The notes below the pieces were generated by a model that was given only the letters and a program-made list of their open reading frames with translations, searched no databases and was not told the origin of the DNA. A stretch of 64,000 nucleotides of DNA, from the NCBI RefSeq assembly GCF_000003815.2, contig NC_049997.1:4453456-4517455 (forward strand), given 5' to 3'. Below, in pieces: positions 2,358-37,700 of this stretch. This DNA comes from Branchiostoma floridae. Lineage: Eukaryota > Chordata > Leptocardii > Amphioxiformes > Branchiostomatidae. The position numbers and the translations under genes were made by a program. Within the stretch, counting starts at the first letter, position 1. Each line of letters opens with the position of its first letter.

Positions 2358-5300
2358 TATTCACCTGTCTTTGCTTTATGCAATCTTGTTTCGTAAAATT
2401 TAATGGCTAAGAAAGTTATTTTGATCTAAAGCTACAAAAATTATTTCACTCATAAAAGATGACAGACAAAAAAATCGGCGTTACCAAAACTCACACCTAT
2501 TTTGTGATATACATGTACGTCCTTTCGGCTTTCCTCTAACTTGGTCAATTAACGCATACATAGCATTATATAAAAACCCGAATACGGTCAGTCCCCTTTA
2601 CATACACAGCTAGCAAACTACCTGTCAAATTGTCAAATCGACATCACCAAGTTACATATTGTGTGTTAGAACTTAGAACTAATGATAAAATTCTATGAAC
2701 TCTTAGTTCGACCACGTGCCATTGTAACTGGAATTAACTTTATTCGAACAAAGTACCATTAGACCACTACAAAATAAATCTGCGATCCTTAAATCTTAAG
2801 AAATGTGCACTATACATATCCAGGTGTTTGAGACATTCTTAAGAATGCTTTCTGAACCCTGTTTTGGGAAAGTTTTAGAGTACCAGGTTAAATTATTACT
2901 TTTACAACGTTAGCTACGAAAATGTATGTGCATTTACATGTTTCACCTCCATGTTTATATTCTTTATGGGGAGAAAATCCCCTTATTATGTTCACTTGAG
3001 TGATAAACAATTATTCATTTTCATATTCGGTCATGCGAACAGTTGTCTGTACTATTCAGCGACCGCAGAGCCCCTAGGGCAACGGATTTCTACTGTAAGT
3101 TACAAACAATCGTGCGTTCGCCAGTGCACACCCCTGTAGTGCCTAGTGGTAGCCTCCTTCGCAAACTTCTAACAGCGATAGCTGACTGATAAGTTTTAAC
3201 ATGGGATAAAGTTCTCTTATGTCGAGATGGGAGTTTCTACCACCACCTCTACCGGTATTATTTTAAAATGGAGAATCAAAATATGTTTTGGTGGCAGGGC
3301 GTAGTTCTAAAGGGAGATTTTGTTTGCCCTTTTTCTTCCTTGAACACTAGACCCAACGTTTACGTCCCATCGGAAAGACGGGTGCACCCCTAACCGAGAT
3401 GTTCGTCCAAGGATTGCACCGAGATTGCCCTGTTGGAACCAGAAGCTCAACGTTAACAGTTGATACGTTTGCTACAACTAGTAAAAGAAATGATGTATTG
3501 CAGTGGTTATTTCTATCTGTTCTATTTATGTAGTCATTGATAACAGATCGATATGTGCCAAGTTAAGATCTAGAATCTCTATTGAATATATTCATTCAAA
3601 CCCTTTGTCATCACGATCCATAACAAGAGTAGATTTTCTCGTTTGAAACCACGTACTACACACTGAAGCGCCACCTTTCAGTAAGAAGAAGAAGCACAAT
3701 ACTCAATCATGTCATGCTGGCATGGCCTTGGGAATGACTGGTTCAAAGTAGCGTGACAAATGTACAAGACAATGGGTATCTATCTCCTGAATAATTTGAC
3801 CATAGGATGTCAAAAAATTTAGATACAAAAATCGGGGTTTCCACTGCAGTACCCTAGAAAGTCGCCAAGGGACCAGTAATTGAAAATGTCGTGTTATTCT
3901 ACAAAGTCTATTCTCATACTGAATATCATAAAGAATAATTCATAACTTCTCGAGAACGCAAATAAAACGACAGCGTTAACATATTATCCTTCTTGGAAAA
4001 CATGATAAACTGCTAGGGGTAAGGAACCGAGGCCTACACCTTTTCTCTGACATGAGAGGCTGCTAATAGAAAAGCAAGGAGATTGCATGCCCGGGACAAA
4101 AGATTGAAAATAAACTTTGGCGTTCTACTTCAGTAACAAGGAATGTCGTCAGGAGGCCCAAAAGCAATATCGATCGCAATCTGGTCTTCAAAAATCTAGC
4201 TGCATAACAATGATCACGTAATTTTCTTACAAGTCCAAGAAAAGAACAAGAGCGAAGTAGAGGAGAGTCAATAGTCATTTTACCTAGTTTCTAGAGTCAA
4301 GCTTGGTATAAAACAGAAGCATAATGGTGTTGTTTACATGAAGATAGGATGATTACATGACTCCACCAAACAGAATCCTTTGTAGCAAGATGACCCGTTG
4401 TTTTGAGTATCCCCCAATTCGCTAGTTTTCAAAGATAATTAGGTCCAGGTTCAGGTCCCGACCTGGACCTGGATCGTACCTGTACCTGAATTTTCTGTAC
4501 CGGTACCCACCCCTAGTAATGACCAAAATTATACGTATTAAAAGAAAGTACACAGTGCAGACACACCAAAAACAATCTCTTTTATTTATGGAGGTAATAA
4601 TGGTTTCTTCCACTCCTGAATATTTCCGCCTTCGTTGACATGCACGCAAAAGAATTATCGATTGTTCTGATTTGACATTTTAATAGGGTTAATGAAAATG
4701 AAGAGGAAGAATATCACCTTTGACATTTCCCTGAATACAGGTGCACTACGAATGACAGGCACCATTCTTTATTTCAAACAGGAAGGTGATAAATCGTTAC
4801 ATTGTGTTCGCCATATAGAATCGTATTCGCTGTTTCTCAGCAAACCATATTCAGTATATTGATCACTTAAATATGGCTGAATGTGTAAGAAGCATATATA
4901 CACGTCTGACTAGTAAAATTAAACATTTAGACATCTAATTATTGGTTTTAAACATACAGTCAAGTGTAGCACTCGATATTGAATACATGTAACGTTAGGT
5001 CGTTTAATGGTATAGTAACACTTTTGTGTTTATGTATATGTCATTACGTACAATATAACAAAGCTAGAATTTTTGATGACGTGATTGGACGAACTCCCTC
5101 CTATTGAAATATTGCTGAAGTTTACTTCTGACCGTACATGGTATGAAAATACTCTAGAAAAAATACATTAAAGAACTCACACCTACACGAAGTATGTTTG
5201 GTTTTGTTAATTACTCGCTTAGAATTTCTCCTGCATTACTAACTGGCTGCCATAACGCGACAGGCAGGCATATAGCTAGAAATGGAAGACAGGAAAAGAG

Positions 5301-16700: not shown

Positions 16701-19700
16701 TGAACAATTGATGCTTGATGCCATGTTTGATGCCATGACTGTGAAACGTAGCAAATATACACAAATCTACCGTTAACCTGACTTCAATCCCTCTGAAGCT
16801 AGGGAAGAATCACACATACACACAGACGTTGATGACAATGTGTATTGACATGAGTTAGCTTCTACCTGACTGCCCTCCCCAGCCCAAGTCCGCATGCGTG
16901 GACTGTTCCATTGGTGAGGGGGGAATAACCATTCTAACTAATCTAACATCTACCACAAGGTTCGAGAAGATAAACGGAAGCGTACCATTTGAGTATCCCG
17001 TGTTGTAGAAGAATGCCCATATTAAGCTTCCGACGATGGCCAATACCACCATGGGGATACACGTTAGGATAGCATCGCACTCGCAGCGATATCGACACCC
17101 TGGAAAAAATATTTTATATTACCTTAATCCTTGCCCTGCTGGTGATTGTTTGGCCAGTTTAACCTCCCAAATCGGATGGTTTCATCAGGTAAGTAAAACT
17201 TGACCTGTTCCATGATGAATACCCCAAACCCATAACAATACAGCTCAGCATGACAAGGGTTAAATATGTCCATCCCGTATATAAACGGGCTCGGTAGGAC
17301 AAGGGTTTAAAATCAGCAAAATGGAAAACCGAATCGAACGACAAGAAATGAAAGCAGTTGTAAAACGTAGTGGATGAAGCTCTAGATAAAGAGATTTACT
17401 TTGCCTAACAACTCTGCGTAATCAGCATGAATTGCTGATTACGTGATATATAGAAAATGTATTGCATGATATTTCCCTTATAAATTTAAAAATGATGCTT
17501 TCAAATCAGCGGTAGCCAACATTTATGATGCACATGCAAACTTTCGTCAACCTTGTCAGTCATTCTAACGGTCAACCAGCATGTAAGAAAAGGACAAAAT
17601 ACATTTTACATAAGACTGTCTTACCACAAATGTCCTGTTGGGGACCGTTTGGCATCGGTGCCTGATTTCTATCGTCACGCACACTCGATGCACTCTCGGT
17701 TGTGTTTCTTTCCGCTGGCACGACATCATCTTCCCCATATCTAACAGCATACGGTTCGATGTTGACATTGGCAAAACTGGCATCTTGTGTTTGTGCACTC
17801 TCGGTTGTGTTTCTCTCTGTTGGAACGTCGTCCTCTTCCCCACATCTAACAGCATACGGTTCAATGTTGCCATTGGCAGAGCTGACATCTTGCTTGTGTT
17901 CACTCTCGGTTGTGTTTCTCTCCGTTGGAACACCATAATCTTCCCCACATCTAACAGCATACGGTGCAATGCTGACATTGGCAGAGCTGACATCTTGCTT
18001 GTGTTCACTCTCGGTTGTGTTTCTCTCCGTTGGAACACCATCATCTTCACCATATCTGACAGCATACGGTTCAATGTTGACATTGGTAGAGCTGGCATCT
18101 TGCGTTTGTGCACTCTCGGATGTGTTTCTCTCCGTTGGAAAGTCACCATCTTCACCATATCTGACAGAATACGGTTCGATGTTGACATTGGTAGAGCTGG
18201 CATCTTGTGTTTGTGCACTCTCGGATGTGTTTCTCTCCGTTGGAAAGTCATCATCTTCACCATATCTAACGGCATACGGTTCGGTGTGGTCAATAATGCA
18301 ACAACTGGCATCTTGCGCTTCTCCGTTCCTTGTTTCCTTGCTCTTTGTAACCATGTCATCATCATCATGATCATCTGTTTGATATCTAACAGCATATGGT
18401 TTGATGCCACCAATGCCTGCTGGTCTGGAAGCTGTTTTCCCTGTTGTTGTCACCGGATTTGCTTGAGCCATACCGCCTGCGGTTACCAGGACTGTCGCAT
18501 CGGAGATGGGATCTTCATTCATCCTTTCAATACTTTCTGACTTAGTGCCAGCTTCTGGCGATATCATTTGATCCTTTCATAGAATCCGACAGATTACGTC
18601 TGTGCGAGATATTGTTCGACTTTCTTCACTTTTATAATTGCTGTTAAAACGTGCCCAATTGCTATTTCATTGCAATTCACACAATTCTCAATACAGCAGC
18701 TCTTTGTCCAATCTCTAAAAATATAAATTCCGAATAAAATGGATTATCAATAGCAAATAATCTGGCTAAAATGTGAGAAACGGCTTCGCTGGCCTAGTCT
18801 GTGCAGACAATATCAATAATCACTGTTTCTTTCTTGTTTTTGCATGTAATCCCAAGAGACGCACATTAGTCTGACTAGTTTGATTTGGACCAACCCATGC
18901 AAAATTGATTTTCTACAAACATATTTTTTTCGTGAAAAATATCCATAAACATTGCTAGATAGTGATATCGTAATATGTCTATCTTTAATTATTAGACATA
19001 TTAGTCTGACTAGTTTGATTTGGACGAACCCATGCATTGATGGCTTTCCTAATATTTTTTTCATTCAAAATATCCATAAACATTGCTAGATAGTGATATC
19101 GTAATATGTCTATCTTGAATTGTTAAACATAACATATAGTCTGACTAGTTTGATTTGGACCAACCCATATAATAATTGATTTTCTGAAAATGTTATTTTT
19201 TTCGTGAAAAATATTCATTACCATTGCTAGATAGTGATATCGTAATACGTCTATCTTGAATTGTGCAGAATTGCAACTAGGTAATACTTTGACTTTTGAG
19301 AGGTTACCTGCTTGATGAATAATCTTTTTTATGGATTTTTTGGCATCAAACCATTGGTAGGACAACGTAAAGGCATGATAAAATGTTTATATAAAATGTA
19401 AATATCTGACAGAAAACTTTTTAAACCGTAGCTTTGGTGTTTGCATGCACTTTAAGGATTTTGTTACTCTGAGCTATTATTTGGCCAAACCTCACAATTC
19501 TTTAAAGCATAATTTAATATTCTTTGACTTAGCACCCATTGCCTATGACATTCAAACCACATATTTACAAAATAAAACGAAGAACAATTTTTCAACAGTT
19601 TGAAGAACTGTTTTGGAGATAGAAGGGAATATCCGTGGTCTCAACAAGAAGTAAATGATCAATAACACATGAAATAACAATCAGGACATTTTGTACTCAC

Positions 19701-21059: not shown

Positions 21060-24000
21060 TCAAAGGCGCGTCATATTGACGTAACAGGGGACCACTTGGA
21101 AGCCTCTGGCGATCCCGTCAATACCGGAGTAGGTTGAGGCTATGCCGCCCACCACACCAATCAGGATGAACTCTATATGCCACGCCCACTCGTACGGCTG
21201 CACTTCGCTGTAAAAACGTAAGGGGGACAAAAAGGCCTCATGTTAAAATTTTGTTGTGTACAGTAGAACATTCCATTGAATATCCTAGTAGTTTAGCGAT
21301 GATCAAGAATACTCAACCTTGTATCCAAGTTTATTTTCATACCATCTCTTGTGTACCCTCTCTAACACTTTGAAAATCATGACATGCCCCCCCCCCCTAC
21401 CCCCCTACTCTTTTTCATGGAGTAGCCCTTATACTGTAATTGTAATACAACAATGTAAAAGTGTGGAAGCTTCTCTGTTTACCAAAGCTATCTCCATTTT
21501 TATTGGATTTTTCAAAATTCAATCGCAGAATGCTTACATTTCCGGCCAATCAGGACTCTTTTGTCTGGCGAGTTTCAAATAGAATAGGCAAGGGAAGATG
21601 AAGGTGAGGCAGGTGATGGTTGATCCTCCAACCAAAGACAAGATGGCGCCGAAATGAGGCAGACTCTCTCCGGTAAACAGTACCAGTCCCACCAAGCACG
21701 TCCGGAGTAAGATCCGGAATATACCGAACTCTGGCAGAAAATTTGACGTGAGAAGTTAATGAGACAGTTACACAATGTTTTGCTGACATGGCGCCAGAGG
21801 AAAATTGACCTCGACGTGACCAGTCACTCGAATGGATTACTAGAAGAGTGGTTTTGTCAGGCTAATAAAATAGTCAGACAATATTACACGAGAAAGTCAT
21901 TAAACAGACATCTGACCAATTCCTAGAGTCCGTATTCGTAAAATCTGATGTTTATAAACTTTACATGTCCAAATTTTGGGTCAATTAACCTGAAAAAGAC
22001 GGCTGACTTGTCATTTTAAACATTATAATAAGTCAGTTTGCGGTTTAAATTGCGCATGCATGGGCATCGTGGGTAAAGGTTCAAAGACATGAAGCCTATG
22101 AGACATACAATAAACGTCTGAACATGCATGAAGCATGGTGTACACAAGAATTGTTTACAAGTTAGGGGCTTCCATATTTGACATATTGCCCAGAATGCAC
22201 CTGGCTGCGCATGCGTGTCTTAAACATAGAACTGGCTTATTATAATCTGCTATCTATTAATCCATTATGGTGAATCATCTATAGACACATCCTATAGCTG
22301 CCATCATAAACCAATGATTGATTGATTAATTGATTGATTGATTTAACGAGACTTACTATTGGCTATCCTGAATCGTTCCTCCAGCTCATGACAGACGGGG
22401 GTGTTGAGTTGTTGACGATGATGAAAGCGAAGATGAGGTGTAAGGTGATAAGTCAACGATGCCTCCTGATTGGTTAGTTAATTGATAGATTGATTAAGCA
22501 AGACTTACTATTGGCTATCCTGAATCGTTCCTCCAGCTCATGACAGACGGGGTTGATGACGATGATGAATGCTGATTGGTTAGTTAATTGATTGATTGAT
22601 TAAACGAGACTTACTATTGGCTATCCTGAATCGTTCCTCCAGCTCCTGACAGACGGGGTTGATGACGATGATGAAGGCGAAGATGAGGTGTAACGTGATG
22701 AGGATGAGGGAGGCGTACTTCAGACCGCCCGCCGTCAGGGTAGACAGGATGTTGTTATCACACTCCGACTTGTAGACCAGAAAACCCGCAACGGACAGTG
22801 GAACATACATCAAGAGCAAAGCTGGAGGGGAGGGGGCATAACATTATATCTATGTCAATAATGTGTTAGTGCGTAAACTACCGCATGCAAATTGTATTCA
22901 ACACGTAATAGACTCCCCCCTCTGGTATATGCAAAGGTCAGTCCCACAGGGTGTTTCCAAAAACGAATTCCCCAATGAATTACATTGGAATGCATGCGGA
23001 AATGTTCTGAATATTTGGCAAGTTAATCGCAGTAAAATACTAACCGCTCCGCCCCTGAGGCGTCGCCATAAAATTTTATGTTTTAACATTTTATGCCTTT
23101 CAATACACACAAATGCACAACTTAATCGCACTTGGCTGTCATTACCTGCAAACGCCAGGACGACGGATCTGGAAAACTTTTCCGGTTCCTTCATATCTTG
23201 CTGAATTGTGGGAAATGTGCTCGCCCCTGAGTATGCGAACAGGATAGTTCCAAACGTCAGGAACAACGCCTGTAAAAAAACGAAAATCACCTTTGAAGAT
23301 GTTTCGGGGTCATCGCCATTAGTACTGCTCTGAGATTGAATTGCTAAAATTTAAAAAACTTGCATGCACTCATTCCCTAGAGATTTCGTTGTTGACAATG
23401 CTTTGTTTAGTTTAATATATTCAGTTGTCATGCATACATAAGAAATCGGTTATATTTTCAGGGATACCTGCAAAATATGAGAAAACACAACAATCTCGCG
23501 GACACCATTGCAAGCTGGAAGATGGGTAGAAAGCTCAGAGGACAAAACGATTATTTCATTGACAATACGCATGGGATACATACTTTTTAGGTCCTATTTT
23601 AACCATGATGGTGATGATTTTGCACTCCGCCAAAGGACTACCCATAATGCCTCAAGTCACCCAGCATGCCATGGGATCCTTAAAAAGTTTACTACTCTTC
23701 CAACTTTTTTCCTGTCTTATGATGTTTAAAAGCTGGTAATTAAACAAGGTAAAGAAACGTACTTTGATCTCCACTTCTCCGTCCTTTACATGTTGAAAGT
23801 TCGGGATGTCCACAAGAACACCAATCAACATCAGTAGACAGGCCAGGACTGTGGATGCGGAGGCTACAACTGCCACAGGCCTTGAGAAAAAAATTGTAAG
23901 ACAATTAAAAACAAAATTGTCCACAATTATACCAGTACAGAAACTGTTTGCGGTGGTTTAATGTTCGCGGTTTTCGTGTTGCAAATTTACCGCGAACTCA

Positions 24001-27000
24001 AAACCACCGCGAACATTTCAAAACTGTCCACAGTTATACCAGTACAGAAACTGTTTGCGGTGGTTTAATATTCGCGGTTTTCGTGTTGCAAATTTACCGC
24101 GAACTCAAAACCGCCGCGAACATTGTTTCCATGGCAGTAACAGACTACAGTGCATGGTGCTACCGCGAACTCCTTGTCAGCGGTTGGTTCTGTCACAGTC
24201 TGCTTTAGAATTCTAAATGAAAATCGTATAGCGACCTATGACGCTTGTGACTGCGACATAAGTATTCCTGTTCCACTAGTATCTTATGGGGTTCCCCAGG
24301 GCTACATATTTGGTCCTACACTGACATACTTCTCATGGAAGACCACATTATGACCGATCGTTTCTTTGACGTCCAATAGATCAGTATATAGTAAAAGAAA
24401 ATGTGTATTAGCTACTCACCAAAAATCTTTGGGTGACCCAAACCAAGTGAATGGTGTGAGCGCCCCTGCCAAGATGATGAGCCAGAAACAGAAGGAGAAG
24501 TTGCCTTTGTGAGGAGACAGGTCCTGCACCAGGGTCTGTAGGTTCTCCGCAGCCAACAACAGGAACACTGTGGCTCCGCTGAATAACGTCACGTTCACAC
24601 AAACACTAACCGCAACTCTGATTGTAAGAAAATGAAAGGCAGAAGAGTTTCATTAGGTTAGTATAAAGTCATAGAACAATAAGACTCTTTTTACACAATC
24701 TTTGTTTTATTCCACCGGCCGACGTTTCGGTGGCAATCTGTCATTCAGGGCAATTTTGACTGGTTTACATTGTACAACAGCAATAGGTGTCGCTGTTTGC
24801 AGATGCGGTTCCAAACACAAGGTTTTACACATACTAGTATTCAGTTTACATGATTGTTTTATTCGGTGTACGATTCTTTGCGTTTAGGACCACACCTGTA
24901 AGCAGCGACACCTATAGTTGCAGTACAATGTTAACCAGTCAGTTTTCACCGGACGAATATGACACGCGGTAACAGACTACAACTGCCACAGGCCTTAAAA
25001 GAATTTTTTTTTAGATTTAAGATAATTAAAAACAAAGCTGTCGGTGGAATTAAACAATGTTTGTTTGAAACGGTTGTCTCTTAATTCAGTGAGCTACCGA
25101 ACTGATGAAGACAAATGACAGTTCAATGTTTACAAAGATTTTACACTACAATTAACGTGCTGCAAAAGGTCAGGAGTGTAGACGTGTCTATAATTGCTAT
25201 ATACGTAACGGGTGTTCGTCAAGGTTAGATGATTGGACCATCTTTGATAGAATTTTTCTTGATAGCATTTTTCTTCTACGTTAACAATTACGTTGTAAAT
25301 CTTTCCCGATGCCTGTTTCACTTCTTGCTGCTTTCTTTCAACTCCCATACATTATACTGAATAGCCTTAAACTGCTGGGGTTCCTCAAGGGTACATTTTT
25401 GGCCCACCACTGGCGATAAGTTGTAGAATGATGGATCAGTATCAAGACGTTTTGATAGCATTTATTAGGTACAAAACTGACCACCAATGACAGCATAAAA
25501 GGTGTAACCTGTCTCCAAACTTTGTTAGGAAAATTAAATGTGCAAACAGTCCGTTTTGTGATTCACTTACTTTCCAACCTCCCCGAAAGCCCTCTCGCAA
25601 ATGGCTGGGTATCAATGCAACCCTCTGGGGGTTCCCCAGGGATACGTGTTTGGCCCACCAATGATACTTATTCAATAACCAACGAGCCATTTCTTACTGG
25701 CACGGAAATGGCTGGTGGTAAATTTTGCTTTGGCACTAGTGGCAATTATCTCCCTGGTGTATAAGTTCTTGTTACCACTCACTTCCCAACCTTCCCGAAA
25801 GCCCTCTCGCCGATGGCCGGGTAGGGGTCCCTGACGTGGTCCCTGTACTCCGGCCAGCGGAGCTGTAGGATGTTCCAACACCTGCCCAGCATGATGCCGT
25901 TATGTCCCGCCACCGCGCCACACAACACCAAGATAACCACGCCGTTCCAGCCTGGGAATGTAAAATATAGATATCACAACTTACTGCCAAACCCGGATAT
26001 ATCCGGCACACATATACATGTCCTGTGTGCCACACCCGGAAATATCCGGGATAGCGTATTCCCCCGAAGTAGCAGCTTTGCGGAAGTTAGGGATCGGACT
26101 TCGGCCTTGTTCGTTTTTGGGTTTGGAGGTCAGCGGCCAACCCTGGCACTGATAGCATTTTATAGGATTGAAACTCTGGCAGTTTAAGGGTTAACAACAT
26201 TCCGCAACTAAGTATGTGCAACCTCCTTGGTGTGTGTTTTTATCATCATCATTATCATCATCAGTCGGCTGCAGCGCAGGCGACTGCAAGCTTCCTCCAA
26301 TTCCGTGTGTTTTACACAATCTTGAAGGAGATGCTGCTCGTTTGTTAGACCTCTAAAGGCTTCTTCTTTGTTGGACCGAAAACATTTACTTTAGGCGATC
26401 AATTCGGATTTCATAACGAGAGAGAACCCTGACTAAAGCCATGCACTTTCACTCAGGTGAAAAATGACTACCTAGCATCGGCTAGGGCCGTCCCTCGAAT
26501 AGGACGTTAAATGGAGGCCCCTTATTTGAGGAGAGCCACACCTCAAGTACGTAAAAATCCCACAACACTTATGGAAGTGAGTGGTTCATAACCATAAAGT
26601 AGGACGCATCCAGGGCAATTGTCGTATTGAGGTCACCTGAGTAGCGCCAATTGGTAGCTCACTCCAGACCCTTGCTATTCAGCCATGTCGGGCGATAATA
26701 GCCCCCCTCAGTGCTGATAGACAGCGTCCTGGCAGACGCATCCTCCAACGCAGGGACATCTAACAGCCAAACTGCCTGTCTGGATGTGCCCTGCTCTTTC
26801 AACCATCACCCTTAGTTAACGTTCCTGTAGTGGACGTCCCCCCAAAACCATCTGTCAGCCAATTAGAGAATAGGCTTTCCGTTTTCAAAAGCTGTCTCGC
26901 ATGTATAAGGTAACCTCATTGATATTCATAAGCAGGGCGGTTAGGAACTAAAGGTTGAAAGACCAGGGCACATCCAGACAGACAGTTGGGAGGGTCTGCA

Positions 27001-29813
27001 TGCTCTTTTCCGTAAGACGTAGGCAGCCTATTTTATTTCCCGTAATTCGTAGGGAAAACCATCTTATCTACGTAATTCGTAGCGAGGCGACCAAATTTAG
27101 CGTAATTGCATTCCTTGATTTAGCGTAATACGTAGGAGGCTCTTCTGAATTCAGCGTAAATCGTTGTCGGGACCCCCCATGCAGACCCTCAGTTGGATGT
27201 CCCTGCGTAGGAGGATGGGCAGACGAAAATCTGTCCGCCCAGCTGCTAAGTTGAGGTCAGTGTAAACATAGAAAAAAAACCTTATTTTCAGTTGAGTGAA
27301 GTGAATTCGTCTTAAGTTAGCAAGGGCACAAGGTTGTATTTTTTCCAACAGATCCGAACCAGAACCTCTGGGGCAAACACCCTGCTGTTGTGCCACACGG
27401 CGCCACAAAGAGGTAATCACTTTATTTCCTAGCCTGTTCAAATAAACAGTTAACCAACCCGTGTTGACGACAGCTCTCGGCAGGGCCAGCACACCGCTTC
27501 CCGCCATCTCACCCACCAAGAACAGGGCAGCCGTAATCACCGTCAGGCCCTTCTTCTGCGCATGCCCAGTCTTCTTCTGCGCATGCTCAGTCCCCTTGTG
27601 TTGGATGGACCCAACTGCAAACGGCGACGTCTCATCTTCGGTTTTAACTGAAAAGGATGCGATGAAGACATTTTTTTTTCATTCTAAAAGAAGTCTATGT
27701 TTTGAGGCCGTTTCGGTTTGTGGTCAGCATTAATTGAGAAGTTGTCGATAGCTCCCTATGGTATTTTCTACGTTTGTAGCTGTTGGCAAGTAACGTAGAA
27801 AGCCACTAGAGGGTCGAAATCAAATCATTAAAAGTTACCTGGAAGCGTCATGGATTTGTTTTTCATAATCTTTTATAACTTGCACGACAGGTAGTAACGT
27901 TAGTTCACCATTAGTCAAGGGGGAACCTTTATCCGTTGTTCTAACATTTAGGGATACTAAGTCGACGGACGTTGCAAAATTTTGAAAATAGCTGCAATAT
28001 TTTGAAGATATTGCAATATTATTTGAGTCCACAGTCCCTTGACTTGATATCCCTTAAAACACATTTGTTAGAAGCAACGGATATTAATATAGGTTACTCC
28101 GCGGACAAAGGTGAATTGGAGTTACATGATTAGCTGACGACAAACCTTTCTCTGCTATGGCTATTTAGACCATCTAGGGTGATTCAAGCTTTATACACCT
28201 TTCTCACGCGGCGGCCATCATAGATTGAAGACGAGGTCAATGAGGCAAACAAACAAAACTTATTTCTAAAATCAGCTCCCATTTAGTATTTCCCCAGACC
28301 ACACAATTTTTTATAATATAAGATCAAATAATAAGTATTATAACAAGTGTTATGCACCGAAAGATGTAGCAATTTATAGTAGCGTAGACTGACCCCATTG
28401 TCCCTTAAGAAATGCAAAATAAAAACATGATAATGCAAATATTTGACGGACATGCAGCCAAATCTCTTATTGGTTGTTTGCCTAATTGGCAGGCTATCAT
28501 TGGCTGAACTACTAATTATGATGGGCAGTCTTTTGTTTGCCTCATTGAACTCGTTTTAGATCTATCATGGCCGCCGCGTGAGAAAGGTGTATTACCAAAG
28601 GTTCAATGTAACCAAACGTTTTATCGCACCGAAGCATGCCTCTATCACGTGCATTTCACGTGCCACTCAGCGTTGATTACATTGCGTCATGCAGGCGGTT
28701 GGGCAAACACATTGACCTTACTATGATTTGTTTGTACTCAAGCTGTAGACTATTTTGGAAATTATGTGCAGTTCTCTTCTGATCTGTGATTTGAGACTCT
28801 AAATAAGGAAAGCACTATAGAAGTAGAAAGACCGGCCTGAGTGTACAGTTTGTGCCCCTACATACGTACAACATGCAGCATCATGCCTTTTTCTCATGGA
28901 CCTTAGAAGTGTCGAAGAAACCTCAGTATATTTAGCGTTTCATGTCGGACTGACCATGAATTGTAGGTTTCAGAAGAGGTGATATATATTTTTCCATGAG
29001 TTATAAGTTTAGCTTTGTTCGTACGTTTTTTTTAATATCAAAGATAAATCACCTGAATAAATTGAGCAAACAATTGTACTGCTAGTTCACCCTTACCTTT
29101 ATCAATTTCAAGAAAACGGAGCATTTTGGGACATCAAGTCGATGTAATATTGTTTCAAGCTGCATTTTTTGTTGAATTGAGTTGAGTTGAATTCAGTATC
29201 CGTCGAAAGTCCCTGTTTTTAAGAATTGTTTCAACGGATATTAGTTACCCCACTTATAAACGTGAACCAACGTTACATGCACTTATGCCATGTCGCAACA
29301 CTGTCCAATACATCCATGCAGAAATGGAACCTAATGATAACGTAATATCATAAACATTGTCATAATAATGTATATACTACACATGAAGACCTTCACTGTG
29401 TCTCCTCCCAATATTGTTTATAATATATATCATAGAACCTGAATGTAGTATTTACTAGATTTATGTTATTAGCAAATAGTCTATTGCAACATTCTGGATT
29501 TGTTTCATCATTGCACTTTGATTTGTTTCATCACCGTGTTTCTTCTAATATTGCATAGCCATAAAACTATATCTATTGTCACTTTATTAGTTTAATTATA
29601 CTACATGGCTAGTTGTCTTATACAATATGATAAGTTTGTCTTACATTATACCCATTTTACAAATGGTGTGCAATAGACTTTGACTCCAGAATGACTTCGA
29701 ATTCAATGCAATTTCTGCCGCAACAGTTGTATCGTAACGAGAAAGCAAGTAAATAAGGGCTGAACAACTAGGTGTTTGACACTATGAATAAGTGAACTTG
29801 TACCTTGTGACAT
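21060..29813 (-). CDS. AAAP-family amino acid transporter, tandem copy A
   Basis: Nine coding exons splice without a break to 451 residues: 29804-29813, 27459-27647, 25783-25951, 24420-24617, 23763-23880, 23146-23269, 22615-22821, 21538-21730 and 21060-21207. Family marks are the first membrane helix ([20 protein letters not shown]), the block [20 protein letters not shown] with MKEP, and about ten or eleven hydrophobic segments ending at [16 protein letters not shown]. These place it in the amino acid/auxin permease superfamily (SLC32/36/38-like), which moves small amino acids with protons or sodium across plasma, vesicle or lysosomal membranes. The nearest subfamily and substrate are not decidable by eye. 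Length is normal. The start (MSQ, exon 1 only 10 coding bases) is supported by the same exon in copy B. The tail differs from copy B because a repeat supplies the last codons. A 21-bp duplication lengthens the N-terminus. Confidence 0.85.
22347..22450 (-). pseudogene. Stray fragment of transporter exon 7 (first extra copy)
   Basis: ACTTACTATTGGCTATCCTG, ATCGTTCCTCCAGCTCATGA and GATGAAAGCGAAGATGAGGT repeat the 3' half of exon 7 (22615-22821), donor included. An insertion (GTGTTGAGTT) breaks the frame. No acceptor is seen. Confidence 0.8.
22498..22570 (-). pseudogene. Stray fragment of transporter exon 7 (second extra copy)
   Basis: Repeats the donor and last ~60 bases of exon 7 (ACTTACTATTGGCTATCCTG through GGTTGATGACGATGATGAAT). 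It is flanked, like the other copies, by TGATTGATTGATTAA-type sequence. Confidence 0.8.
23934..24175. repeat. Two tandem copies of the CGCGAAC-family repeat
   Basis: Two nearly identical ~113-bp units begin GTACAGAAACTGTTTGCGGT at 23935 and 24048. Each holds GTTCGCGG and its complement as a hairpin. They lie in intron 4 of transporter copy A. Confidence 0.75.
24970..25042 (-). pseudogene. Stray fragment of the exon 5 start and its intron
   Basis: ACAACTGCCACAGGCCTT followed by AAAA-rich sequence and AATTAAAAACAAAGCTGTC matches 23862-23915, the acceptor end of exon 5 plus intron. Confidence 0.65.
25562..25610 (-). pseudogene. Stray fragment of the exon 3 end
   Basis: TTCACTTACTTTCCAACCTC, CCCGAAAGCCCTCTCGC and ATGGCTGGGTA copy the donor end of exon 3 (ERAFGKVGK). 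It lies ~175 bases downstream of the real exon. Confidence 0.75.
26268..26425 (+). repeat. Interspersed repeat shared with 32656-32805
   Basis: About 150 bases (CAGCGCAGGCGACTGCAAGC to GGATTTCATAACGAGAGA) match 32656-32805 with only a few differences. Both copies lie in transporter introns at non-corresponding places, so they are separate insertions or a local transfer. Confidence 0.7.
26435..26640 (+). repeat. SINE body fragment
   Basis: Shares the CACTTT-CACTCAGGTGaaaAATGA-TACCTAG-ATCGGCTAG core with the 13255-13510 SINE, but lacks the tRNA-like head. It lies in intron 2 of transporter copy A. Confidence 0.45.
26739..27217. mobile_element. hAT-type MITE with 8-bp duplication, interrupted
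   Basis: Long inverted ends begin CATCCTCCAACGCAGGGACA and are flanked by exact 8-bp duplications GGCAGACG (26731-26738, 27218-27225). The right arm is split by a second element at 26991-27189. A related uninterrupted copy is 33577-33858. It lies in intron 2 of transporter copy A. Confidence 0.85.
26991..27189. mobile_element. Nested 199-bp MITE with 8-bp duplication
   Basis: Ends AGGGTCTGCATG and CATGCAGACCCT. Flanks CAGTTGGG (26983-26990) and CAGTTGGA (27190-27197) form an 8-bp duplication with one mismatch. The body repeats CGTAATTCGTAG-like motifs. It inserted into the older element at 26739-27217. Confidence 0.85.
27894..28125. mobile_element. MITE of the GTAACGCTAGTTCACC family, degraded
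   Basis: Left GTAACGTTAGTTCACC and right GGTGAATTGGAGTTAC ends match the family seen at 48388, 57910 and 63587. Inside are the shared TTGAAAAT-GCTGCAATATTTTG and GATATCCCT motifs. It lies in intron 1 of copy A. Confidence 0.65.
28196..28589. mobile_element. TA-type MITE, copy 2
   Basis: A 394-bp element with terminal inverted repeats CACCTTTCTCACGCGGCGGC flanked by TA on both sides (28194-28195 and 28590-28591), as in Tc1/mariner-type insertions. It lies in intron 1 of transporter copy A. Confidence 0.85.
29081..29276. mobile_element. MITE of the GTAACGCTAGTTCACC family, degraded
   Basis: GCTAGTTCACC at the left and GTGAACCAACGTTAC at the right, with ACATCAAGTCGATG and AACGGATATTAGTTACCCCA inside, place it in the same family. 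It carries several small internal changes. Confidence 0.55.
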
Positions 29814-29849
29814 ATTACGTCTTCACAGACAAAACAGGACACACAAGTT

Positions 29850-30090
29850 CCTCAAAAACGTAAAATATCCTTCTCTGTGACAGTACTGTTCGTTGAAATG
29901 ATCATGCAAGATTTCAAAAAGGTTTCTCACTTTGTTGTGAGTTGGACCATGGACCTGAAGTTACATCATCACATGACGGCCATGTGTTGACACTGAAAGA
30001 TATAGTCGTATGCCGGGGTGTGGTGTCAATGCCCCCTTGTTGATTTTAGCCACGTGTTGAACTCTAGAAGGTCATATGTATTTGTTTGTA
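29850..30090 (-). promoter_or_regulatory. Putative promoter region of transporter copy A
   Basis: This stretch upstream of exon 1 shares scattered blocks with the DNA upstream of copy B: a rejoined TTGGACCAT...TCACATGAC...GCCA block and GGTGTCAATGCCCCCTTGTTGA followed by CACGTGTT, in the same order and spacing. Conservation outside the coding exons of two old duplicates suggests retained control sites. The ATCACATGAC resembles an E-box. No clear TATA box is seen. Confidence 0.35.
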
Positions 30091-30534
30091 CCTCGTTTAG
30101 TTAATGTGCAGTCACACGAATGTTCTCAGGCATATATTGATCAGGGAAAGCAGTGGAAGATGAACTACATTTCATTTGTGAATGTTCATATTACCGTTCC
30201 GAAAGAAAGAAACTGAAATTCCTTAAAATCTGCAAAACTTCCCCAAGCTTTATCACCTTAACGGCCACCTAATCAATCTTCTTGCTCAAGTCGTCCAACC
30301 CTTTTATATATGAAAATGATGGAGAATTCGTCTCCTATGGCATATGGAACAGAAGTCAAACCCATATCAAATAGCGTAATAACGTAGAAATAGATTTAGA
30401 TTAGTCGCTATTCCCTTTTGATTTATCTATGAGTATCATTTTCCTTCTTTGTTATGTATTATTATGTATACCACTACTGCTTTACATTGTATGCAATTAG
30501 CCCTCGGGCAGGAATCTGCAATAAAGATTCTATA

Positions 30535-30776
30535 AAGTCCGTACGAGGCCTGTATTGACATTTTCCATATGCAGCCGTATTCGTACGCATGAATTAAAAG
30601 CGAACCACGTTCGCATCTCAATCGTTGTGTGTCAGTTTGGGGTATGCAGGCATACGGACAGTACGGCCCGGTACACGTAACTGGAACTGGCACAAAACGC
30701 ATGAGGTGCGTATTGACTATTTCTGCGAACTTCTGCATTTGAAAAAAAAAATGTCAATACGGACCCCGTACGGACT
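30535..30776. mobile_element. MITE with AAGTCCGTACG ends
   Basis: AAGTCCGTACGAGGCCTGTA with TTGACATTTT at the left is mirrored at the right (AATACGGACCCCGTACGGAC). The arms are ~28 bp with a few mismatches. It lies between the two transporter genes. Confidence 0.65.
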
Positions 30777-31736
30777 TTTTAAACATTGTGACTGCAACTT
30801 AAGGCCCTGTATACAGTTGCATAAGACGAGCTGAAATGTAAAATAGATATTCTGTCTCGCAAACACGTTTATTGAAACAGTTTGCAACAACAATTACTAA
30901 AAGTACATTACAAGACAATGATTAGACAAAAAATATCAAAATAACAAAAATATATTAAAGCAGCTTTTTAAAAGAGAACGATCCGGTGAAACATAAGGAA
31001 AAGGATAATTTTTACGAATATTCTATATCAAGAACATCACATATCACCTTTGCATTTTGGTGCATATTGATATGATGCACCTTTGGCCGTAGCAGTTAAA
31101 AGAATCTTTTTCGCACATTTCTACCAACAAGAATAGAGTTCTAGAAATTGCACAATGTTTTTTTTTTTACATTCGCAGCTTAAAACCTTCTCTCGCAGTC
31201 ACTATACGTGTTCTTGATATCCGCATTCTTGCTTATGTTGGCTACATTTTCTGTAAAACCTTTTAGTTAACTACTAGTCAGAGTTTTTGATGGAAAATAG
31301 CCCAGTTTTATTAATGCGCTATACAATAGCCTACATCTATTATCGTTATATAGGTACTGTATAAGGCAAGAGGCATGAGAGTTTACAAAGAAAGAAGCTG
31401 GCAAGCCATGATAAATCAGATTTTACGCAAACCTTCTATACATTTTGGACAATATTTTTGGCGACACCTCAGAGGCGCGCCCTTTCTGTATTGCACAGGA
31501 ATCACGTATACGCCAATATCCCCCATAGGGGATCAGATTATCGGCGTCCCTTCAACGGATGGTATTTGGATAAACCAATATATTCCTTTAGTGCTTAAGG
31601 CCTGAAAGGAAGCCTTTTTGGCCAAGTTTATGGCTATATAAACAATATTGCATTTCTTAGTTTCTTACAATTATCAGGGAAAGTAGCCAATATGTGTGCG
31701 GCTCTTAATGTATAATCTACGCAATAATTATCAGAT

Positions 31737-34700
31737 CTACATGTCAGCAGCAGTCATGTTGACGTAACAGGGGACCACTTGGAAGCCGCCGGCGATCCCG
31801 TCAATAGCGGAGTAGGTGGAGGCTATGCCGCCCACTACACCAATCAGGATGAACTCTATGTGCCACGCCCACTCGTACGGCTGCACTTCTCTGTAAAAAC
31901 GCAAGAGGGACAAAAAAATCAGATGTGTACACGCGTACGTTTTCGCTGGACATTGGGCTTTAGAGCGCTTCAATGGAGGTAAATATTTGTTGGTTGTTAT
32001 TACCATTTCCATGTTTATTAAAAACAACTTTGGCATTCCCTCATATTTACGTATCACTCTGACCACCGTTTGTGTTTCTCATAGAACATACTTAATGATA
32101 TACCATAGAGATAACTATACCATAAAGATTTCTCTCTATTGTTAGCACTATTCTTCAAACTCATTCCTTATTGGACGTTTAATGATCAAATCGTAGAAAA
32201 CTCACATTTCTGGCCAATCAGGGCTCGTCTGTCTGGAGAGCTTCAGGTAGAACATGGAGGGGAAGACGAAAGTGAGGCAGGTGATGGTCGATCCTCCAAC
32301 CAAAGACAAGATGGCGCCGAAATGAGGCAGACTCTCTCCGGTAAACAGCACCAGTCCCACCAGGCACGTCCGGAGTAAGATCCGGAAAATACCGAACTCT
32401 GACAGAAACAAAAGACAGAAAGATTTGACGTGAGAAGTTACTGAGTATATAAGACAGTTACACAATATTTTGCTGACATGGCGCCAGAGGAAAATTGACC
32501 TCGACGTGACCATTTTACTTTGGCAGAAACAAAAGACAGAAAGATTTGACGTGAGAAGTTACTGAGTATATAAGACAGTTACACAATATTTTGCTGACAT
32601 GGCGCCAGAGGAAAATTGACCTCGACGTGACCATTTTACTTTTTTTTATTTTGCAGCGCAGACGACTGCAAGCTTCCTCCAGTTCCGTGTGTTTTACACA
32701 ATCTTGAAGGAGATGCTGCTCATTTGTTAGACCTCTAAAGGCTTCTTCTTTGTTGGACCGAAAACGCTTACTTTAGGCGATCAATTCGGATTTCATAACG
32801 AGAGACAACCCAGGCACGTCCGGAGTAGAATCCGGAAAATACCGAACTCTGACGGAAAGAAAAAAAGACGTTACAATCTCAATTAGATTTTGAGCCTCGA
32901 TATGAGGACTGTACAGGCTTTTATTGACCTTTGCTCAATTACAATACTGGAATCACGTGTTCGTAATGCCACGTGTTTATTGCGTCACGTGATCGCAAAG
33001 ACATACATGTATTTCCCTAGAGTCACGTGTTCTTAAAGTCACGTGCCCAAGTGCTGTGTCAGCTATTCTGAAGGCAATAGCCTTAACAGAAACATCGAGC
33101 AATTCATTTTTGAATATTGAAGCCAGATTATATTTTAAGGTGGGGTCACACATGCGTATATATTCACGTCCGTTTTAGGTGCGTATGAAGCTCTTAGTCT
33201 CTACCAGGCTCCACAGGTCACGGGGAAAATGGTACGAATTGGACAAATATAGATACATAACATGCCAGATGAGTTAGCTGACCGAGAAGTATGATTAGCG
33301 ACCAAGCTGACTCGTCTGACATGTTACCTTAAATATATACGCAGGTGTGACCCCACCTTTAAACTGTGCATGTGCAGCAAGACGCATTGTGAGTTATCTG
33401 TCAAAGTTCATGTCTCCTGAGACACAGACAAGTCCTGTTCGGACAAGCATAATCTGAACAAGGAAAATTTGAGGCTTTTACTTTTGATATATTATATACT
33501 AAGCATCTCCCTGCATATGCGTATTTCAAACCGTGAACCGTCTTAATCCAATCTGCTATCTACATGTATTGCGCATCATATCCTACGCGGGGACATCCAA
33601 CGGCGAAACTGCCTATCTGGATGTACCCTGCTTTCTCAACCGTCACTCTTAGTTCCCATGGGCGTCGCCACAAACCAGCTGTAAGCCAATCAGAGAATAG
33701 GCCTTTCAGTTTTCAAAAAGGATTTCGCATATATAAGGGTAAGCTCGTTAGTATTTTTAAGCAGACTCTGACGGTCAGGAACTAAGGGTGACGGTTGAGA
33801 AAGCAGCGTACATCCAGACAGGCGGTTTCGCCGTTGGGTGTCCCTGCGTAGGAAGATGTCTATTGCTGAGAATCAAGTGGACTTACTGTTGGCTATCCTG
33901 AGTCGTTCCTCCAGCTCCTGACAGACCGGGTTGATGACGATGATGAAGGCGAAGATGAGGTGTAACGTGATGAGGATGAGAGAAGCGTACTTCAGACCCC
34001 CCGCCGTCAGGGTAGACAGGATGTTGTTGTCACACTCCGACTTGTAGACCAGGAAACCCGCAATGGACACTGGGAGGTACATCAGCAGCAAAGCTGGGGG
34101 GGGGGGGGGGTAGTAGCATGTATGTCAGCATAAATGTGTATACTTGCCGTAATTTTCCCATTTAAATCAATCACAAATCTTTCAGTCAATCAAGTTAAAG
34201 TTACGTGTTTCTAAAGCCTAGAGTACGGGATCACTAAGTCAAGTGTTCGTAACGCCACGTAATTATGAAGTCACGTGTTCAAGTGGTGGATCATGTACAT
34301 TGACGTCGGCTAAAGGGTTGGGGAAAATTTTGGTGAGCCCACAATATTGGACGTTTTCTACTGCAAGCTAACATAAACACTGACAAAGAAACAGACAAAG
34401 AGACAATTAATTCGTTAACTGGATGAAATCACGATCATTTGAGGCCTATTCGCAAACACACCCAACTCGACATACAAACAGCAAGCTCTGCCCCTGGTAC
34501 GTTGCCAAAACCTTTACGCGAATACCCCCACGCAACAACAAATATACACATCCCTTCTAACATACCTGCAAACGCCAAGACGACTGATCTGTAGAATTTC
34601 TCTGGCTCTTTCATGTCGTGTTGAATTGTGGGAAATGTGGACGCTCCGCCGAACGCGAACAGAATAGTTCCGAACGTTAGGAATACCGCCTGGAAAAGAA

Positions 34701-37700
34701 GGATTAAAAAAACTGTTTGTTTGTTTGTTTGTTTGGAAACGTCTGTTGAATTGTAATACGTGTTAGCGTAAAGTATATCAGAAAACATAATTCCATTTAG
34801 ACCTTTTTACGAATGCAATAGCATGAACCATGGTGCTATGGGTATACCTAGTAGGTAGAAAACAACATCATCGCTATGGCAACGCGTGTTTTGTGCATGC
34901 GTACTGTGTATGGTCCTGTCCCATGATGTCATGGTAATGATACTGTCCCCCTCGCAATACCTATAGTGCAACACGTCTCCCAGTGTGCTGTGGGATCACG
35001 GTGTGATGGTCTATCATATTGCTCTTTCAACTTTCACCTCTCCTGTGGCTTTTAGAATTATCAGTGTACAAAGTGTACCTTAATGTCCTCTTGTTGGTCC
35101 TTTGCATGTTTGAAGTTTGGTATGTCCACAAGAACCCCAATAAACATCAGGACACAGGCCAAGACCGTGGCAACAGTGGCAGCAACAGCCGCTGGCCTAA
35201 AATAAAAAGTACGAAAATTCAAGTCAAAATTGGATACAATACACTGTTTGGTAATAACAACCTCTGCATATGATGGGGTTCCTCAAGGATACATATTTGG
35301 CCTACCACAGGTGTAAAACAGTGATTTCAAACGTAGTTCTAATAAAGCACCGTAAGCTATACTAATATCTTATGGGGTTCAGCAAGGCTACATATTTGGG
35401 CCTCCACTGACATATACTATAGTATGCTCTATATTGAAAAAAAACAAACTTTGTCACTGATCGCTCCTATAACATAAGGCGTGTTAGTATCAAGAACAAT
35501 ACTATCATTAGCTCACCAGAAATCTTTGGGTGACCCGAGCCAAGTGAATGGTGTGAGCGCCCCCGCGAGGATGATAAGCCAGAAACAGAAGGAGAATGTG
35601 CTATTGTGAGGAGACAGGTCCTGCACCAGGGTCTGTAGGTTCTCCGCTGCCAACAACAGGAACACTGTTGCCACGCCAAACAACGTTATGTTCACACAAA
35701 CGCTCACTGCAACCCTGTTGGAAGACAGAAAAGAAATGATTGAATACTGACGGAGATTTTAAATCGGAAAATCTTGTTAACTACGTCCCGAATCGTCTGG
35801 GTTGAGTAACAGTACAGTGTCTATTGTAAAACTATCTCTTCTTTTACCTCACATTTCTTATAATTCTACAGACGTAGAGTTCTTAAAGGCTGCATCCTTG
35901 GTCCACCTGCAACAACATTTGTGGTTTCTACCTTTTACATACTGTAAGGTGTCTTCTGCTGTTTCATCCTAAACCCCATACCCTATGTCATCAATGCAAC
36001 CTTCTAGGGTTCCTCAGGGTTACTTGCTTGGCCCACCAATGATAATATGATAATAAATGAGTCATGTGTTGCTGGCACGGAAAGGATAAGCTGGTAGTAT
36101 ATTTTGGTATGAAATCATGAAGTTGGTTGTTTTTTACGACTTGTGTTACTTTTTCTTGCTCTCTTTCAACCCCCATACATGTGTACATCATACTGAACAG
36201 CCTTCAACTGCTGGGCCGGGGTTCAGCAAGGTTACATTTTGGGCCCACCACTGACGATATGTTGCAGTCTGGCGGGTCAGCATCAATATCTCATGATACA
36301 ATTTATGGAGCGTTAAAGAAAGCATGACAGCATGTTTGTACAAGTAGTCTATAGATATGGAAAAAAGATAAAATGTCCTTTATGATCCACTTACTTTCCA
36401 ACCTTCCCGAAAGCCCTCTCGCCGATGGCCGGGTAGGGGTCCCTGACGTGGTCCCTGTACTCCGGCCAGCGGAGCTGTAGGATGTTCCAACACCTGCCCA
36501 GCATGATGCCGTTATGTCCCGCCACCGCGCAGCACAGTATCAGCATTACCACACCGTTCCAGCCTGCAGTATAGAATATCATAGAGATGTCAGAGTAATG
36601 ATACATGAAATAGTCATTACGGATGCGCAGACAGTATCACTGCAAAGGCAAAACCCCGTGGGGTGCATTTTGTTGCTTCTGATGCACTATTAGGCCATGC
36701 ATGGTCTCTATTTTTTGCCGGGTCCCGGATTGACTTTAAGTTCAAGTTTGAAAATATCCACACAAAAAAAGCTCGGCAGTCACAGCATGGCCCGCGGGGC
36801 AACGTAGGGGTCCCACCCAAAAGTGAAGAAGAAATAAACGGCCGTTACATTACACGAAGGGGCCCCTTTTTTCCGAATTTTATATAGCTTTGGTCACAAT
36901 ATTTTGAAAAAAATGGACCTGCCGTGCTGTTTACGTGTGTTTTTGTGGTCAGTTTCGCGTGTGAAGCCTAAATGGCCCCATGGGGCATCCTGCGTCTGCT
37001 GGAGTGTGATCGGGCCCCTGGCTTTCTTTTAACTTGTAGTTAAAATCAGCCCGGAACCAGGTCACATATTGACGCCATAGGCTCATCGTGAGGACACCGA
37101 GAGATTCTCCCGCGGCATTTAGCAGTCCACCGGGACACCTTTGAGGCTTCGATGCCCTGCTGTTGCCACATCCCTTACAGATCTGAACAAGTCCTACTTA
37201 CCCTTACTCCGCAAGGAGGCGTGGTGAGGGGGCAGAAGATCCACGCAAGTCTCGACCTACTTCTCACAACTCTCGCGAGAACTATGTTACTCCGCGAACA
37301 AGATGGACTCATAGCCATTTAAGATTTGGAGGTACCTTTGTTTGCCTTTAAAAAGTAGTCACTGCTTGAGGAAAATTCTATCAACTGTGTACATACGTGA
37401 CTAATGAACTCTTCAACGAAATCTGACCAAGGCATCAGTCGGCCTGGACATACCTGTATCCACGACAGCTCTCGGCAGGGCCAGCACTCCACTTCCTGCC
37501 ATTTCTCCCACCAGGAACAGGGCAGCCGTGATCACCGTCAGACCCTTCTTCTGCGCATGCCCAGTCCCCTTGTGTTGGACGGACCCAAACGGCATAGGTT
37601 CTGCATTCATTTCAACTGGAAGGATGCAAGCACAACATTTTTTTTAAATATTTGCTAAAAAAAGCACTATATTGTGTGACGTTTACTTGTGAGTGGGTGT

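Follow-up and report, generated by a model that had tools for sequence, protein, structure and literature searches.

Short reverse transcriptase B-box cores repeated in introns of two amphioxus transporter genes

A core of about 30 bases that encodes the most conserved motif of retroelement reverse transcriptases (RTs), the B box, was found repeated in introns of two transporter genes, outside any jumping gene, in a 64,000-nucleotide stretch of the Branchiostoma floridae genome (contig NC_049997.1, positions 4,453,456 to 4,517,455; hereafter the window). Together with cores elsewhere in the genome, these copies establish that a family of stand-alone B-box elements exists. The core elements are possibly a little-known, functional DNA element. 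Our preferred reading, which is tentative, is that they are untranslated, oriented and dispersed elements under selection, ~29–36 bp long, whose degenerate consensus, GGGGTNCCNCARGGNNNNNTNYTNGGNCC, equals the RT B box of this genome's long interspersed nuclear elements (LINEs), and that they are read as DNA by a putative host factor. When local pairs are compared, the core changes less than its flanks and with triplet periodicity. The spread was partly by local tandem duplication, with nearby further copies on the same strand.

GVPQGSVLGP is RT motif B of CR1/L2/Jockey-like non-LTR (long terminal repeat) retrotransposons. The cores resemble this motif in their ten codons, in CAR (R, purine) at the Gln position and in hydrophobic residues 7 and 8, but differ from it in lacking any other RT motif nearby, in carrying many different residues at position 6 and in their untranslated context.

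B-box cores in the window

An initial annotation of the window had reported seven plus-strand cores that code for an RT B box and lie antisense in introns of two transporter genes. All seven were exact in position, each reads (G/R)V(P/Q)QGY(I/V/L)(F/L)G(P/L) in a single frame, and both the B-box coding character and the intronic, antisense setting were borne out, as the host exons match Aa_trans on the minus strand. The annotation had seen no copies elsewhere in the window, but there are at least nine, as it missed two decayed cores at 25211 and 35876. The copies are as follows.

24288..24323, plus strand: core copy c, gene 1, intron B; flank partner 35374
25211..25246, plus strand: decayed core, gene 1, intron A; GVRQG*MIGPSL; 25.5 bits (weight matrix)
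25377..25412, plus strand: core copy a, gene 1, intron A; flank partner 36218; upstream in-frame stop with two codons between
25628..25663, plus strand: core copy b, gene 1, intron A; flank partner 36006
35275..35310, plus strand: core copy d, gene 2, intron B; gene 1 partner not found
35374..35409, plus strand: core copy c', gene 2, intron B; flank partner 24288
35876..35911, plus strand: decayed core, gene 2, intron A; RVLKGCILGPPA; 16.7 bits (weight matrix)
36006..36041, plus strand: core copy b', gene 2, intron A; RVPQGYLLGPPM; flank partner 25628
36218..36253, plus strand: core copy a', gene 2, intron A; GVQQGYILGPPL; flank partner 25377

A degenerate pattern allowing up to three mismatches matched exactly seven sites on both strands of the 64 kb and none in 100 shuffles, and the cores thus stand far above chance. 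The weight matrix was built from the seven cores, which hence score highly by construction (48.8–55.6 bits); the two decayed cores were its next-best sites, on the same strand and in the same introns, and 14.0 bits was the highest score reached in 40 first-order Markov sequences as long as the window (one strand each). Diversity among the seven lay mainly at third codon positions (4.24 vs. 1.86 and 1.05 at the other two; permutation P = 0.026).

Genomic distribution and comparison with LINEs

Searches covered the 513-Mb assembly (431 contigs). The Y-type core, named for residue 6, had six matches with up to two mismatches, all at the window locus, to which the exact Y-type form is confined (36006 was excluded by its number of mismatches). 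A Y/F pattern with codon degeneracy, allowing up to two mismatches, gave 15 matches, six of them in the window, and its reversed control gave none. The nine matches outside the window comprised a LINE (L044; fetched loci carry L numbers), a homeobox exon (L009/L045) and seven sites without RT flanks, with L047 as a weak exception because of a longer RT match. A wider RT-coding pattern with up to one mismatch matched 338 sites (reversed control 0), about 100 of which were listed; 18 of the 19 one-mismatch matches that were fetched (L020–L038) read as LINEs by eye, L031 being the other. Among four further pattern matches that were fetched, L053, L055 and L056 were stand-alone and L054 was a LINE. 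Two candidates were dropped as chance or coding matches, namely L045/L009, within an OAR-homeobox exon on the other strand, and L031, opposite a 694-codon open frame; L013, L011, L044 and L054 were set aside as true LINEs. Beyond the window the stand-alone consensus is GVPQG-X-[hydrophobic]-[LF]-GP, and some copies are clustered on one strand.

A second matrix, which combined the seven cores of the window with ten copies from outside loci, revealed extra copies in five of eight ten-kb loci, always on the strand of the first copy (totals: L046, 3; L048, 2; L050, 5; L051, 3; L052, 2; single in L045, L047 and L049). Chance would yield ~0.004 matches of ≥21 bits per 10 kb, the weakest L050 unit reaching only 16.7. 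Copies in L050, L046 (the first two) and L052 are local tandem duplicates. Between loci, flank matches (E 0.01; 300 bp each side of 24 sites) were short and by reading lay on unmasked neighbouring cores; apart from these, no flanks common to different loci were found. The host strand is known for three loci: the cores are antisense in the window and in L052, where the core lies between CUB exons, and in L050 they share the strand of a RAWUL exon; the exon upstream of them, which would make this region an intron, is a reading without a Pfam match. L050 also holds a zf-RVT LINE piece (3807–4286) on the other strand, ~490 bp from the core cluster, and in L059 short internal repeats surround the core, with M[VI]LGP read several times. 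Viral contigs searched for the core gave no matches. Among the papers listed on RT fragments, introns and amphioxus, none dealt with such cores to judge by title, and the GVPQG motif, alone or with intron, had no match in the part of the literature covered.

Whether read in the window or beyond it, the cores did not behave as LINE fragments. A 171-position profile of 18 LINE RT segments from this genome aligned nearly end to end in the training LINEs L013, L034, L026 and L011, and in LINEs outside the training set it reached positions 2–170 (L054), 88–169 (L027) and 87–145 (L044; the B-to-3' part). In stand-alones, no RT motifs flanked the B box within 300 codons either way (about 300 bp for L057–L068), positive-scoring matches falling only within positions 71–117; the exception was L047, with a weak match over positions 21/22–108 (17 bits). 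A six-frame profile scan of 144 kb returned 20 rows (two being one L047 site), all including the B box and all at core sites, with stand-alone match positions of 68–112, four of seven window cores above threshold and nothing in reversed DNA; it is uninformative on the genome at large because the 80 kb outside the window were chosen for their cores. The window cores are not truncated LINEs, in keeping with the annotation, and the genome's own LINE-RT profile matches them only around the B box. The parent LINE that the annotation had envisaged was not recovered: pattern searches of the genome gave no LINE with a window-type core among the matches listed, and the two LINE copies seen with Y at residue 6 differ from it (GVPQGYVLGP in L013, GVPQGYILGP in L011).

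Residue 6 varied more freely in stand-alone cores than in repeated LINE-like matches. The pattern GGGGTNCCNCARGGNNNNNTNYTNGGNCC had 102 genome matches without mismatch and none in either of two controls. Among the 100 matches listed, 71 fell into groups whose members were the same or differed by a single base, and 29 were singletons. The groups are taken as LINE families on account of this repetition (their flanks were mostly not fetched). Grouped matches carried S (57) or T (11) in 68 of 71 cases, and F, Y and I once each, these three being local duplicates of stand-alones. Singletons carried S (9), Y (7), T (3), R (2), M (2) and, once each, G, I, V, C, E and L, and window cores carried Y throughout; thus neither stand-alones nor window cores keep to the S/T of the genome's LINEs. 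Given their many residue-6 types, stand-alones are not the relic of a single parent LINE. Of 12 singletons sampled (nine with non-S and three with S at residue 6), none had RT flanks in the ~300 bp examined, and a further core copy lay on the same strand in two (L060 and L066); some may lie inside exons of other genes, as opposing open frames reached 120 codons. Reversed patterns and a permuted-codon pattern had no genome matches. A CAY (Y, pyrimidine) version of the Y/F pattern gave eight matches, including five from the window and one from the homeobox exon, all of them CAR sites counted as a mismatch. At four-fold sites all four bases occur in 19 stand-alone copies outside the window, a list in which the purine at the Gln position was imposed by the pattern.

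Selection in place and competing explanations

Eight local pairs differed at 9/144 of codon positions 1 and 2, 15/72 of third positions, 6/24 of residue-6 positions and 254/707 of flanking positions (positions 1+2 vs. 3, P = 0.002; 1+2 vs. flank, P = 9e-15; 3 vs. flank, P = 0.009, and therefore even third positions change less than flanks), although the flank rate is inflated by poor alignment of some flanks (over half of the positions differ in pairs c and L052). The third-position change in local pairs suggests selection after arrival, beyond coding ancestry. Selection in place is supported, with a bias by ascertainment.

From this we infer recognition as DNA by a LINE-sensing factor. The core would be a long recognition site, and its reader might be a C2H2 zinc-finger array, which is proposed because of the triplet periodicity. 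Such a factor would recognise the B box of LINEs irrespective of the codons used, and host-gene introns may have kept such sites for their own regulation; LINE-borne RE1 sites were taken up likewise for REST. Residue 6 is as free as the mixture of S and T codons would require of a LINE-reading factor. It is more doubtful whether a DNA-binding factor reads the B box through codon degeneracy, such that retroelement escape would break the enzyme, with stand-alone sites recruited into introns. RE1 (REST), CTCF and PRDM9 sites are long C2H2 zinc-finger sites that were partly spread by transposons; the cores are likewise long, oriented, clustered, dispersed without common flanks and, as far as the local pairs show, of triplet periodicity, but their sequence differs, their consensus equals a coding motif and their factor is only putative. 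SINE (short interspersed nuclear element) families with a conserved central domain also exist and share a short conserved core in dispersed copies, whereas the B-box cores have no flanks common between loci, and no tRNA was found in the window.

Several points weigh against recognition as DNA by a host factor. The local pairs were picked since both copies were recognisable, with L050 units in several of them, and two window copies have decayed. The search patterns fix most positions, only the window copies and the extra copies found by matrix being free of that. The purine-only Gln position follows the genetic code, for which coding ancestry is simpler than DNA recognition. Host orientation is variable, L047 has its weak longer RT match and, to our knowledge, no binding factor is known.

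The main rival is recurrent capture without function, in which short RT coding pieces from diverse retroelements were inserted many times (templated or RNA-mediated) and local duplication added the rest; we consider it possible but somewhat unlikely. It accords with the synonymous share of changes between core types (75% for a gene-1-based set of four, 48% for the gene-2 set, vs. 27–28% if neutral), with the purine at the Gln third position in 8/8 matches of the CAY search and with the three paralog pairs alone, whose six synonymous and seven nonsynonymous changes are nearer neutral. It does not sit well with the third-position bias in local pairs, with the same box having the same borders every time, or with S/T at residue 6 in repeated LINE-like matches when singletons carry many residues. 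That freedom, and homology that ends at both core borders, would be expected of a DNA element without relation to RT, its likeness to the B box being accidental. We regard this as improbable, since ten codons bear the RT motif, no CAY site was seen, and copies with Val and Pro codons absent from the window were predicted by codon-degenerate RT patterns. Remnants of very old LINE insertions would explain the identity with the B box and the longer match in L047 (positions 22–108), but decay would not spare one 30-bp box, and the profile found no positive match beyond positions 71–117 in the other stand-alones, with L057–L068 examined over about 300 bp; this explanation is largely refuted for the loci tested and is the least probable of all.

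Two further alternatives concern RNA and protein. Intronic antisense copies might give rise to host transcripts that base-pair with LINE mRNA where it can change least, as the antisense orientation in the window and L052 would allow and as a core length near that of PIWI-interacting RNAs would suit; the L050 cores, on the same strand as their RAWUL exon, and the many copies that mismatch LINEs at residue 6 make such a trap very unlikely. For six of the seven cores, RNA–RNA docking to host pre-mRNA did not improve on the top result among 15 shuffles, which were scanned in coarser steps than the cores; 24288 was slightly better (-35.9 vs. -34.1), but its paralog 35374 was not. Local hairpins were rejected for all seven cores on both strands (z -1.05 to 1.52 vs. 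shuffles). Micro-exons or tiny peptides with GVPQGxxxGP would fit the codon-like pattern and the lack of indels in the eight local pairs, yet stops lie close by (25377 has one in frame, with two codons and no ATG between it and the core), an in-frame ATG upstream without an intervening stop occurs in only two of seven window cores and not in the other five, and no consistent splice sites were seen by eye; cryptic coding is hardly credible.

If the cores are functional, they link a strongly constrained retroelement enzyme motif to host cis-regulation and would be a concrete, testable case of escape-proof transposon recognition. If they are not, a spread of tiny RT-coding pieces is still demonstrated, one that annotation seeking long elements would overlook.

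Host transporter genes and neighbouring features

Pfam searches of nine stretches identified seven minus-strand transporter exons, all matching Aa_trans (E 2.6e-11 to 5.7e-4), three of them above the curated cut-off. A protein search of the genome with exon 4 (E 0.001) found only these two genes. The exons flanking the core-bearing introns, and a partial duplicate, are listed here.

24420..24617, minus strand: host exon 4, gene 1 (Aa_trans); borders by eye
25555..25611, minus strand: partial duplicate of the exon-3 end with a donor-like site, gene 1 intron A; 89.5% to 36379–36435
25783..25954, minus strand: host exon 3, gene 1 (Aa_trans); donor placed by eye, distal border by BLAST
35517..35714, minus strand: host exon 4, gene 2 (Aa_trans); borders by eye
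36395..36566, minus strand: host exon 3, gene 2; donor placed by eye, distal border by BLAST

In gene 1, cores 25628, 25377 and 25211 lie in intron A and 24288 in intron B; in gene 2, intron A contains 36218, 36006 and 35876, and intron B contains 35374 and 35275. Three pairs between the paralogs, as the annotation had it, were confirmed by common flanks (24288/35374, 25377/36218 and 25628/36006), but it had not seen that two of them are swapped in order (25377 then 25628 in gene 1, 36006 then 36218 in gene 2); overall, its interpretation was partly supported. A flank-based partner of 35275 was looked for in gene 1 and not found. Tandem duplication with loss would explain the swapped order, because gene 1 holds the partial exon-3 duplicate, which may thus account for it; the inner part of this duplicate (25564–25611) is 87.5% identical to 25776–25823.

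In all four introns the donor-proximal core lies ~95–140 nt beyond the 5' splice site (by eye). The first 14 bases are common to the two donor-proximal cores, one in intron A and one in intron B, of gene 1 (24288/25628: GGGGTTCCCCAGGG), and likewise to those of gene 2 (35374/36218: GGGGTTCAGCAAGG). These starts, alike within a gene and unlike between genes, are at odds with the flank-based pairing of cores.

Rfam gave no gathering-level match across the 20–40 kb region of the window. A weak mir-3479 match (30.1 bits; gathering 79) was seen at 23945–24015, inside a 107-bp tandem repeat, and a further tandem repeat, with a 105-bp unit in 5.7 copies, occupies 17689–18282.

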